From positions 1-51,784 of the forward strand of contig VXTR01000020.1 in NCBI GenBank assembly GCA_009837355.1: DNA of 51,784 nt, in the 5' to 3' direction. Source of the DNA: Chloroflexota bacterium. Lineage in GTDB: Bacteria > Chloroflexota > Dehalococcoidia > Lucifugimonadales > UBA3495. Below, one piece after another: positions 46,541 to 50,444 of this stretch (position 1 is its first letter; each line of letters begins with the position of its first letter). The notes under the pieces are model-generated. The model worked only from the letters and a program-made list of their open reading frames with translations, had not been told where the DNA came from and searched no databases. Made by a program: the position numbers and the translations under genes.

Positions 46541-46555
46541 TGATACGGAGTATCA
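46541..46555 (+). promoter_or_regulatory. 7-1-7 Fur/Zur-type operator at the regulator promoter
   Basis: TGATACG-G-AGTATCA is a nearly perfect inverted repeat with outer arms TGATAC and GTATCA. It covers the expected transcription start and the GGAG ribosome site, so a bound repressor would block both initiation and use of the message. The pattern resembles the family 7-1-7 box TGATAAT-N-ATTATCA. Confidence 0.72.
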
Positions 46556-46560
46556 AATCG

Positions 46561-47028
46561 ATGGTCTCTAACAGCCTTAAGCATACCGGCCACGACCACC
46601 CGCGGCCTCGTTCCGCCGCCGTGGTAGATGATATCGTTTTTCATCTCGGCCAACTGGGCTACCGGGACACGGAGCCCCGTCGCCTGGTCATCAGCGCTGT
46701 GGCTGCCCAGAGCCGCCCATTTACCGCCGAGGAGCTTTGCACATCCTTGCCCTGCGTGGGTCGGGCCACGGTCTATCGGGGCCTGCGCCTGCTGGTGGAA
46801 ACCAACCAGGTTTGCCGTGTGCTGCTGGAAGACCGGGAACTGCGCTATCAGCTCAGCCACCAGGGACATCATCACCACCTGCTCTGCGCTGTTTGCGGGG
46901 TGTCCGCCGACCTGGAAGGCTGCAACGTCGAGGAGTCACTGCGCGCCGCCGCAGCTGCTGCCGGTTTCCGAATGAGCGGCCACTGGCTGGAAGTGTACGG
47001 AAGCTGTATCAACTGTGCCGCGGCCTGA
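46561..47028 (+). CDS. zur: Fur-family metal-responsive repressor, probably Zur-like
   Basis: This 155-residue protein has a winged helix at about 20-95, with recognition helix GRATVYRGLRLLVE at 67-80. A C-terminal dimer domain carries two CxxC pairs (C109/C112 and C149/C152) that hold structural zinc, and HHHH at 103-106 is available as sensing ligands. The family represses metal-uptake genes when the metal is bound. Assignment to zinc (Zur) rather than iron comes from the downstream zinc-binding protein and permease. GGAG precedes the ATG, and an operator overlaps its own start, so it is likely autoregulated. Confidence 0.86.
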   Translation: MVSNSLKHTGHDHPRPRSAAVVDDIVFHLGQLGYRDTEPRRLVISAVAAQSRPFTAEELCTSLPCVGRATVYRGLRLLVETNQVCRVLLEDRELRYQLSHQGHHHHLLCAVCGVSADLEGCNVEESLRAAAAAAGFRMSGHWLEVYGSCINCAAA

Positions 47029-47046: not shown

Positions 47047-47080
47047 TTGACCATATTATTGATACTGTATATCAGTATAC
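47047..47080 (+). promoter_or_regulatory. Promoter and second Fur/Zur-type operator before the zinc lipoprotein gene
   Basis: TGATACT-G-TATATCA (47060-47074) differs at few positions from the operator at 46541-46555 and shares its TGATAC start and TATCA end. A further GTATA-TCAG-TATAC palindrome overlaps it (47067-47080). TTGACC (47047-47052) with TATCAG 17 bases on could be the promoter, with the operator covering the -10. The second copy of a rare pattern makes co-regulation by the Fur-family protein likely. Confidence 0.6.
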
Positions 47081-47134: not shown

Positions 47135-49495
47135 ATGAACGTCCAACCAAGCCTTTCAAAGCCCTCAACCAAATTCACGACGCTGCGGCTGGCGGCGATT
47201 ATCGCCGCGCTCTGCATGGCCGCCGCGCTATTTTTGTCCGCCTGCGGCGGCGACGAGTCCGCGCTCCCTCCGGCTGACTCGTCTGCCACCGCAGGTTCGG
47301 CCACCGGCTCCCCTGCCGGCGGCTCTACTTCCGATGCCGCCGCCACTGCCGCGCCCGATACTGGTTCCACCTCCGGAACTACTTCCGGGGCGACTTCCGG
47401 CGGCGGCGCGCCCGCGCCCGCCGAACCCATCAACGTCGTCACCAGCAACGTCGTCCTGGCTGACCTGGTGGCCCAGGTGGGCGGCGACCACGTATCCATC
47501 CATAGCCTGGTTCCCCCGGGCAGCGACGTTCATTCCTGGCAAAGTTCACCCCAGGACAGCGTGCGCATCGCCGAGGCCGACGTTATCGTCAGCAACGGCG
47601 CCGAGCTTGCCGTGCAAGTTGATGAGCTGATTGAAAGCGCCGTTTCCGCCGACGCAGTGCAGGTGGTCGCTTCCGAGGGGCTGGAAGCCCAGGAACTGGT
47701 TGAACTGCCCTTCCCCGAGGGAGACCACGATGACCACGGCCATGATGACCACGGCCACGGAGAGGCCGCCGTCGAGCTCGAAGGCCGGTTGCTCATCGGC
47801 GACGGCGAAGGCTCCGGCCTGTCCGTCATCGACCTGGAGTCCGGCGCAGTCCACCAAAACGAATTTGACCTCGGCTCCCGGGCCGGACGCATCTACCCCA
47901 CGGCCAGCGGACGCTTCGCCATCGCGGTGTCCAGCGACGCCAACGCCGTTCACGTCTTTGACGGCGGCATCTATCTGGAAGAGCACGGCGATCACTTCGA
48001 TCTCGTGGAATCCGAACCGAGCGCCATCAACCTCGACTTGGCCGGCGACCGCCCCGTGCACATGTACGTCGGAGGCGAGTGGGCCACCATCTACTACGAC
48101 GGCTCCGGCGACGTGGTCCTGCTCAATGAGCACGAACTGGAAGAAGAGGGCGACGGATATAATCCCCCCAGATTCAACGCCGGCCCGCATCACGGCGCTG
48201 CCGTGCCGCTCGCGCATGACCTCTTCGCCGTCACCATCCAGCATCCCGATTACGACAGCAGCCCTTCTGACTACCGGCTGCCCGAGCGCGTGGCAATCCG
48301 CGACGTGGACGGCAACGTGCTGTACAGTGGTGAAGCGGGTTGTCCCGACCTTCACGGCGACGCCGGCAACGGGCACGTGGCGGTCTTCGGCTGCACCGGC
48401 GGCGTGCTTGCCCTCGAAGCCGACCACGGCGAATATGAGGATTGGTTCATCCCCGCGCCGGCCGGCTCGCCCGATGACTTCCGCCTCACGTCGGTCTGGG
48501 GTTACCATGACCTGCACCACTTCTTCGCCCTGGGTTCCTCCGTAGGCCTGTACATCGTTGAGCCCGAAGACGGCTTCATGGAACAATTGATACCGGCCAC
48601 AGACTCGCTGCGTCCGATACAAGTGGCCATCAGCCACGACGGCGAACTGTTGATTGTGGTGATGAGCGACGGCGAAATCCGTCTGTACGATGCCCACGAC
48701 GTCGACCTGTTGGCCTCCAGCAACGAGATTCTGTCGGACAACATCGACCCCGGTTTCTGGGCGCGACCCCACATCGCTACCGCCCCCGACCATATCTTCA
48801 TTACCGACTCAATGGCCGGCGAAGTCATCGCCCTGGACGCCCACGACCTGGAGGTAGTCAATCACTGGGACGTGGACGGCCAGCCGACCAAGATTGCCTT
48901 CGTGGGCGTTTTGGGTGAAGGGGATCACGAAGAGGAAGGGCACGACGACCACGGGCACGATGATCACGGGCACGGGCACGACCATGGCGCCGGCGACCCC
49001 CACTTCTGGCTGAACCCGCGACTGGTGGTCCACTACGTGAACCAGATTGCCGACGGCCTGGTCGCCGCCGACCCGGACAACGCCAGCGTGTACCGGGACA
49101 ACGCCGCCGCCTACACTGCCGAACTGGAAGCGCTGGACGCCTACATTGCTGACGCCCTCGCCGGCATCCCCGATGACCACCGAGTGATTGTCACCTTCCA
49201 CGACGCTTTCGGCTACTTCGCCAGCCGCTACGACATGGAAGTGATGGCCTTCGTGGGCGGCCACGGTGGCGACGTCTCCCCCGACGACATCGTGCGCGTG
49301 CTGCACCTGGTGGAAGACGAGGGCTTGCCGGCCGTGTTCGCCGAGCCGCAATTCTCCGACGACGCTCTGGAGCAGGTCGCCCGGGACGCCGGCGTTTCCG
49401 TCGGCCTCATCCGCGCCCTGACCGACGACGATCATCCCGACTACATCGGGATGATGCGAGCCAACGCGGACTCGCTGGCCGAGCTATTACGCTAG
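47135..49495 (+). CDS. Zinc-binding lipoprotein: ZnuA/AztC domain with an inserted AztD-like beta-propeller
   Basis: This 786-residue lipoprotein (signal to A36, anchor C37 in LSAC) has a nested layout. Residues about 98-195 are the first lobe of a ZnuA-type cluster A-I binding protein, with putative zinc ligand H133 in GSDVHSW. A His/Asp tract (196-209) follows. Residues about 211-592 look like a complete beta-propeller of seven or eight blades. Its phrases include PHHGAAVPLA (351-360), CPDLHGDA (403-410), FGCTGGVLALEADHG and YHDLHHFFALG, as in the zinc chaperone AztD by recollection of that family. A second His/Asp tract (597-618) leads back to the second lobe, with H623 in DPHFWLNP, H689 in TFHDAF and an Asp at 764-766 completing the site. 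Family members use a His-rich loop exactly where the insertion lies. The ZnuB-like permease gene follows. Assignments are strong for ZnuA, good for AztD-like. Confidence 0.85.
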   Translation: MNVQPSLSKPSTKFTTLRLAAIIAALCMAAALFLSACGGDESALPPADSSATAGSATGSPAGGSTSDAAATAAPDTGSTSGTTSGATSGGGAPAPAEPINVVTSNVVLADLVAQVGGDHVSIHSLVPPGSDVHSWQSSPQDSVRIAEADVIVSNGAELAVQVDELIESAVSADAVQVVASEGLEAQELVELPFPEGDHDDHGHDDHGHGEAAVELEGRLLIGDGEGSGLSVIDLESGAVHQNEFDLGSRAGRIYPTASGRFAIAVSSDANAVHVFDGGIYLEEHGDHFDLVESEPSAINLDLAGDRPVHMYVGGEWATIYYDGSGDVVLLNEHELEEEGDGYNPPRFNAGPHHGAAVPLAHDLFAVTIQHPDYDSSPSDYRLPERVAIRDVDGNVLYSGEAGCPDLHGDAGNGHVAVFGCTGGVLALEADHGEYEDWFIPAPAGSPDDFRLTSVWGYHDLHHFFALGSSVGLYIVEPEDGFMEQLIPATDSLRPIQVAISHDGELLIVVMSDGEIRLYDAHDVDLLASSNEILSDNIDPGFWARPHIATAPDHIFITDSMAGEVIALDAHDLEVVNHWDVDGQPTKIAFVGVLGEGDHEEEGHDDHGHDDHGHGHDHGAGDPHFWLNPRLVVHYVNQIADGLVAADPDNASVYRDNAAAYTAELEALDAYIADALAGIPDDHRVIVTFHDAFGYFASRYDMEVMAFVGGHGGDVSPDDIVRVLHLVEDEGLPAVFAEPQFSDDALEQVARDAGVSVGLIRALTDDDHPDYIGMMRANADSLAELLR

Positions 49496-49539: not shown

Positions 49540-49583
49540 GAATTTCGCCGCCGCCGGCTGCCGAGCGTGTAGAATGAGTGCCC

Positions 49584-50444
49584 ATGTTTGAATGGATTAT
49601 CGAACCAATGCAATATGGCTTCATGCAGCGGGCACTGCTGGTATCGGCCCTCGCGGGCACTGCCTGCGGCGTCGTCGGCACCTTTGTCGTGCTACGGGGC
49701 ATGGCCTTCCTGGGCGATGCCATCGCCCACTCCGCGCTGACCGGCATGGCTGCCGCTTTTCTCTTCGGGGTCAACATCTTCCTGGGGGCGCTGATTTGGG
49801 CCGTGCCGGCATCCCTCGGCATTTCGCTAGTGTCCCGGCGAGCCGGCATACGCCTGGACGCGATTATCGGAGTCCTTTTCGCCGGGGGATTCGCAGTAGG
49901 GATAATCCTGATCAACCTGTCGGAAAATTACTCTGGTGACTTGCTCGGCATCCTGTTCGGTCATGTCCTTGGCGCATCCTGGGGCGACGCGCTGGCGGTG
50001 GGGCTGCTGGCCGGCGGCATCATACTCGTGGTTAGCCTGCTTTATAAGGAGCTCGTCTTCACCACCTACGACTCTGCAGTAGCCGAAGCGTCGGGCCTGC
50101 CGGTGCGCTTCCTGGAATACCTCCTGCCGCTGCTGGTAGCGCTGACCACGGTGGCCGCGCTGAAAACCGTCGGCAACGTGATGGTAATGTCCTTGCTGGT
50201 GGTGCCGGCGGTTACCGGCAGCCTGCTGGCCCGGCGGCTGGCCAGCATGATGGTCGCAACCGTAGGCGCAGCCCTGGCCGCCATCGTCATCGGGCTGTAC
50301 CTGTCCTTCCACTTCAATCTGCCCACTGGGCCGGCCATTGTGGTGGTGTCGGTAGCCCTGCTCCTGTTTACCGTGGCGGTTTCGCCGCGCCGCTGGTCCT
50401 TGATCGCCCGCCTGCGCCGCGTAGCCCAGCCCCAGCCGGGGTGA
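49584..50444 (+). CDS. znuB: ZnuB/AztB-like metal ABC transporter permease
   Basis: This 286-residue membrane protein has about eight transmembrane segments and belongs to the ABC-3 permease family for zinc and manganese. RGMAFLGDAIAHSALTGMAAAFL at about 38-60, VVGTFVVLRG and VGNVMVMSLLVVPAVTGSLLARRL near 200-222 are family marks. The ATG at 49584 is taken; a GTG two codons earlier is also possible. A TAGAAT lies eight bases before the ATG, so it may have its own nearly leaderless start. No ABC ATPase gene is found in the unit or elsewhere on this stretch for this permease, so one must be encoded elsewhere. Confidence 0.91.
   Translation: MFEWIIEPMQYGFMQRALLVSALAGTACGVVGTFVVLRGMAFLGDAIAHSALTGMAAAFLFGVNIFLGALIWAVPASLGISLVSRRAGIRLDAIIGVLFAGGFAVGIILINLSENYSGDLLGILFGHVLGASWGDALAVGLLAGGIILVVSLLYKELVFTTYDSAVAEASGLPVRFLEYLLPLLVALTTVAALKTVGNVMVMSLLVVPAVTGSLLARRLASMMVATVGAALAAIVIGLYLSFHFNLPTGPAIVVVSVALLLFTVAVSPRRWSLIARLRRVAQPQPG

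Follow-up and report, generated by a model that had tools for sequence, protein, structure and literature searches.

The closest known system to the locus treated here is the AztABCD zinc importer of P. denitrificans, in which the receptor AztC and the chaperone AztD are two separate periplasmic proteins. AztD has two zinc sites, site 1 built from H124, H167 and H218, site 2 from H99, H102, D104 and H408, and a disulfide between C214 and C231; both sites are labile, and zinc of site 1 escapes to the solution in vitro (PMC6689063). Site 2 alone hands zinc to AztC, and the termini of AztD are located near this transferring site (PMC7463823). On the side of the acceptor, the D-loop of AztC is required for transfer (PMC7731109), a published docking model threads the intact D-loop through the pore of the propeller, and binding of zinc by D279 has been proposed to be the final step. 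The formation of the AztD-AztC complex is slow, about 600-1300 M−1 s−1, and rate-limiting. In general, the short life of the complex makes it difficult to investigate how a metallochaperone passes its metal on.

Other known systems share single features with the locus. In AdcA of Streptococcus pneumoniae, a ZnuA-like domain is followed by the C-terminal AdcAC, which is related to ZinT; the receptor is thus fused to an accessory zinc domain, and a passage of zinc via a His-rich loop has been proposed (PMC7858048). This fusion, however, is end-to-end, its accessory fold is unrelated to AztD, and nothing is nested in a loop. The anchored-repeat ABC transporter substrate-binding proteins of TIGR03772 contain an additional stretch of about 225 residues at the corresponding point between the lobes (in the profile of 486 positions, lobe 1 covers 1-84 and lobe 2 covers 311-485), but an AztD propeller, with about 370 residues, would not fit into an insert of that length. 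In Thermus (L122) a receptor gene lies directly upstream of an AztD gene, but the two are unnested. Fused zinc receptors are not new as such. For an AztD nested in its acceptor's loop, or for an exchange of AztD between receptors, no description was found in the open-access literature searched; subscription papers and preprints were not covered.

The window, i.e., the whole stretch of DNA analysed, is the 51,784-nt contig VXTR01000020.1 of the assembly GCA_009837355.1 (Chloroflexota bacterium). Its locus resembles the AztABCD system in both domains, the disulfide, the fold and the type of operon, and it shares all zinc ligands with the P. denitrificans proteins except D279 of AztC, while H408 of AztD has only a candidate counterpart. 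What differs is the architecture: instead of two proteins there is one nested lipoprotein (Table 1).

Table 1. Features of the nested zinc-receptor locus (positions in the window)
Feature	Position	Strand	Basis or remark
Fur-family-type palindrome TGATACGGAGTATCA	46541..46555	+	upstream of the fur-like gene
Fur/Zur-family regulator gene	46561..47028	+	Pfam FUR 4.3e-18
Fur-family-type palindrome TGATACTGTATATCA	47060..47074	+	upstream of the nested gene
Nested AztC(lobe 1)-AztD-AztC(lobe 2) lipoprotein gene	47135..49495	+	786 aa, single uninterrupted 786-codon frame
Signal peptide with lipobox (LSAC, Cys37)	47135..47245	+	sequence; homologues show the same pattern
Receptor lobe 1, residues 98-195, ligand H133	47426..47719	+	AztC NF040870 positions 1-85
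His/Asp-rich linker, first D-loop half	47720..47782	+	disordered, pLDDT under 50
AztD beta-propeller, residues 217-592	47783..48910	+	NF038015, 6ck1, fold, ligand conservation
His-rich linker, second D-loop half, holds H598	48911..48985	+	disordered
Receptor lobe 2, residues 618-786, ligands H623, H689	48986..49492	+	AztC NF040870 positions 99-275
AztB/ZnuB-type ABC permease gene	49578..50444	+	Pfam ABC-3 4.4e-67; NCBIfam AztB 1.1e-60

Behind the lipoprotein signal, a low-complexity tether leads to an outer protein that is, by sequence and predicted fold, an AztC/ZnuA-type (cluster A-I) receptor. Pfam ZnuA matches it in two parts (1-100 and 82-262 of the profile, 6e-79), AztC (NF040870) is its best named family in NCBIfam with 199.5 bits, and the closest solved structures of the joined lobes are those of P. 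denitrificans AztC (5w56/5kzj, E about 1e-38). The NCBIfam search also yielded matches of the receptor part to Mn-binding MntC models. The insert, in turn, is a complete AztD propeller, as judged by sequence, ligand residues and predicted fold. It covers the AztD profile NF038015 over its full length (positions 5-355 of 356, 6e-35) and matches both crystallised AztD proteins, with 1.6e-30 (PDB 6ck1) and 1.7e-26. An unrelated propeller family is ruled out by these matches together with ligands and fold. Its 120.6 bits remain below the curated cut-off of the AztD model, which is 400 bits, and the AztC score of the protein is likewise under the NCBIfam cut-off; automatic annotation would therefore probably miss the AztD part.

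The conservation of zinc ligands was counted among 48 different nested homologues, with 21 standalone AztD domains for comparison. By alignment, site 1 of the insert consists of H309, H353 and H407, which are kept in 47, 46 and 45 of the 48, and site 2 of H284, H287 and D289 in the motif HGDHFD, kept in 48, 47 and 48. Both cysteines corresponding to the disulfide, C403 and C420, are invariant (48/48). Compared with these figures, the mean identity over the AztD domain among nested homologues is only 0.60. H598 in the second linker is the candidate for AztD H408 (36/48), but the alignment of His-rich linkers is uncertain. In the receptor, H133, H623 and H689 align with H61, H138 and H204 of P. 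denitrificans AztC, and each is present in all 48. The fourth ligand of AztC is not kept: at the position of D279 an Asp is found in 2 of the 48 and a Gly in 25, and in 21, including the protein of the window, the loop is shortened. This near-universal loss is a real difference from P. denitrificans AztC. Another residue, H462, is a His in 44/48 nested but in only 2/21 standalone domains; it may be a ligand or contact specific to the nested form.

The propeller sits inside the His/Asp-rich D-loop of the receptor, as is evident from the empty sister form L126, which carries the whole His/Asp-rich loop there, and both halves of the loop survive as linkers. Across nested homologues these have median lengths of 25.5 and 27 residues with 4 and 7.5 His, the first value being measured with slightly wider bounds than those in Table 1. 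AlphaFold2 models were built from alignments of 24, then 40 sequences of the window and the loci. With the deeper alignment the pLDDT rose from 82.9 to 87.2 and the pTM from 0.58 to 0.59; propeller and receptor domains were predicted with confidence, both linkers as disordered. The first model, predicted to contain an eight-bladed propeller, superimposes on AztD 6ck1 with Z 41.5 over 365 residues (model 118-500) and on holo-AztC 5w57 with Z 31.2 over 268 aligned residues that span both lobes (model 1-690); Foldseek, also run on this model, supports the assignment to the AztD and AztC folds. Since the match to holo-AztC extends across the insert, the predicted receptor fold is left intact by the insertion. 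The placement of the propeller relative to the cleft, however, cannot be read from models with such a low pTM and disordered linkers.

A preliminary description, made from the sequence alone, had already proposed most of this architecture. A single 786-codon frame with ZnuA lobes around a propeller, the AztD-like nature of the insert and the ZnuA/AztC nature of the outer protein, insertion at the His-rich loop, and H133, H623 and H689 as receptor ligands were all confirmed. The same order of domains, for which it had suggested a search, occurs in dozens of genomes. Of the motifs it listed in the insert, PHHG and CPDLHG turned out to contain the site 1 ligands H353 and H407. YHDLHH does not belong to the zinc motifs of AztD, and among the nested proteins its H462 alone is conserved; HGDHFD, the transferring site 2, had been overlooked. 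A conserved Asp ligand at 764-766 found no support, D764 being an Asp in only 14/48. Three outcomes had been named that would overturn the description: the unrelated ligand-free propeller and the misassembly both failed outright, while a propeller far from the cleft can be neither confirmed nor excluded by the models. Its intramolecular zinc relay is supported as the best-supported inference, but is not demonstrated; the conflict between propeller and receptor trees and the near-universal loss of D279 had escaped it.

The nested gene is not confined to one assembly. An AztD match was found in 22 of 60 relative genomes, mostly in frames of 740-860 aa and some of them in single-contig genomes, and 63 loci emerged when 84,980 species genomes were scanned. 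When the species scan and a phylum-wide sample are taken together, the two receptor lobes enclose 50 of the 73 copies of the AztD domain; all 50 stem from genomes of the same phylum or from records that bear the label Chloroflexota, Dehalococcoidia or SAR202. Within the phylum the trait is patchy, since an even sample of 400 Chloroflexota genomes contained only 13 with any AztD match. Misassembly is excluded by the 50 nested copies, several of which reside on chromosome-length contigs (G007, G011, G025, G038; OX638292); a genome of the same genus, in which the same operon has an empty His/Asp-rich loop, points the same way.

A gene for a Fur-family homologue precedes many of the nested genes. 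That of the window matches the models for Fur, PerR and Zur without reaching the cut-off of any. The 51.8 kb of the window contain just two copies of the palindrome TGATA-N5-TATCA, upstream of the fur-like and of the nested gene, and 100 shuffles contained none (expected 0.00); at least one copy is present in 22 of 53 related loci (L035-L087). Zinc-controlled expression through the adjacent regulator is likely, but inferred. In many other lineages an ABC ATPase gene lies directly downstream of the receptor; in the clade of the window no ATPase gene adjoins receptor or permease. The best candidate in the same genome is 41% identical and stands alone on another contig (G000:C7). This possible partner of the permease, an orphan (L121:4723-5808), has an N-terminal stretch rich in His.

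What might such a protein do? The best explanation, to which we assign a probability of roughly 0.68, is a tethered chaperone that delivers zinc to the cleft of the receptor by an intramolecular route. In this view, an AztABCD-type zinc importer has the protein as its surface lipoprotein, with AztD inserted into the flexible D-loop of the acceptor, AztC. Zinc would be loaded onto the propeller at site 1 in the pore and at site 2 beside the AztD termini, and site 2 would be held near the cleft because these termini are the points of insertion. From site 2 the zinc would move to H133/H623/H689, with or without help of the His-rich linkers, and the receptor would then hand it to the permease. The tether would abolish the slow encounter that limits transfer between the separate proteins. 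Zinc as the metal, the transfer from site 2 to the cleft in one molecule, the orientation of the domains and the kinetic benefit are all inferred. Several observations speak against the relay, the docking pose being the main difficulty. The D-loop of the nested protein is broken by the propeller, and the published docking pose may thus be impossible in cis; as this pose needs an intact threading loop, the nested protein must use another pose or its linkers. Also, D279, proposed to complete the transfer in P. denitrificans AztC, is missing in most nested proteins. Further points are the unresolved placement of the domains, the lack of an adjoining ATPase gene in the clade of the window, AztC and AztD scores under the NCBIfam cut-offs, and the existence of propeller-free receptors in the same lineages.

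The chief rival is a tethered reservoir or scavenging antenna, which would not donate directly but, by rapid release, raise the local zinc concentration for capture of free zinc by the receptor. The lability of both AztD sites and the loss of site-1 zinc in vitro (PMC6689063) are in line with it, as are the disordered, His-rich linkers and the fact that nested forms keep site 1 nearly as well as site 2. We nevertheless consider it unlikely, since site 2, which is the sole donor site of the P. denitrificans protein, shows the strictest conservation (48/47/48 of 48) and the insertion point is the very loop needed for direct transfer. A mere docking or adhesion module, with metal residues retained for stability of the fold, is much less plausible still. 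Beta-propellers are common binding modules, and the conservation of H462 in nested proteins only hints at a nested-specific role; yet the ligands of two separate zinc sites, not just fold residues, are conserved at 0.60 mean identity, and the operon context is metal uptake. That the same relay carries manganese, iron or several metals is similarly improbable: the receptor does match Mn-binding MntC models and has lost the acidic fourth ligand, but three cleft His, a His-rich loop and AztD are hallmarks of zinc, and the best named family is AztC. A chimeric assembly or non-functional fusion, which some broken copies might suggest (frameshift in L014/L039, transposase in L017/L049), is all but excluded, and refuted as a general explanation, by 50 nested copies with conserved ligands, also in chromosome-length single-contig genomes.

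Relatives without the propeller complement this picture. In a single-contig genome of the same genus (G003), a receptor with a propeller-free His/Asp-rich loop (L126) is 75% identical to that of the window in lobe 2, shares the order Fur-receptor-permease and is likewise preceded by a Fur-family homologue. Other relatives have propeller-free forms of both receptor lineages (L127-L136). As such receptors exist within the same lineages, the propeller is not essential.

The trees of receptor and propeller conflict. For the two lobes of the receptor, pairwise identities correlate with r=0.95, for AztD and receptor with r=0.42 only. Two loci (L072 and L077) have AztD domains that are 76% identical in receptors of 34% identity; in another pair (L048 and L074) the receptors are 67% and the AztD domains 36% identical. 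Each of the two AztD types is found both in receptors that have the SLG loop and in receptors that lack it. A receptor tree constrained to unite AztD type A was rejected (AU p=7e-5), as was an AztD tree constrained to unite the loop-shortened receptors (AU p=2e-58); the groups tested were defined after the first trees had been inspected. On the receptor tree including empty forms, the nested or empty state changed at least five times, with gain and loss being indistinguishable. Given this conflict, the propeller behaves like a cassette that can be exchanged. An exchange via direct DNA repeats in the linkers found no support: the longest string shared within a gene has a median of 10.5 nt versus 9 between genes, and the longest one common to both linkers of the window gene is 8 nt.

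A single-chromosome record from Binatota, a MAG with the label Candidatus Binatia, has an AztD cassette 69% identical to that of the window inside an unrelated 931-aa protein (L047:5197-7989), near a Fur gene, a ZnuA-type receptor and an ABC ATPase. A bolder reading, which we favour by a narrow margin, is that the AztD cassette entered, left or was swapped repeatedly in the D-loops of at least two Chloroflexota zinc-receptor lineages, with this close copy in an unrelated protein, and that with each entry into a receptor loop a slow transfer between two proteins becomes a relay inside one molecule. A domain cassette that recurs in the loop of a receptor would be an unusual evolutionary path to a tethered chaperone. 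With donor and acceptor in one chain, joined at the loop required for transfer, a relay could be measured as a first-order reaction, and sister genes with and without the propeller, together with the swapped pairs, amount to a natural experiment on donor-acceptor specificity.

Some further copies deserve mention. One nested copy (L039/L014) has a frameshift at the junction of lobe 1 and propeller; in another (L049, the same place as L017) a transposase-like insertion splits the gene between lobe 1 and propeller. Two Chloroflexota MAGs (L082:4228-7209 and L083:4082-7182) contain a protein with two AztD domains in tandem and a pair of neighbouring AztD genes, respectively, without receptor lobes. 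AztD also occurs in Poribacteria (L091:5815-8175, also L092-L094 and L096); a C-terminal type IX secretion sorting tail is present in L091, the only one checked for it, the others being of about equal length. A separate AztC-like gene lies upstream in four of these five Poribacteria loci.
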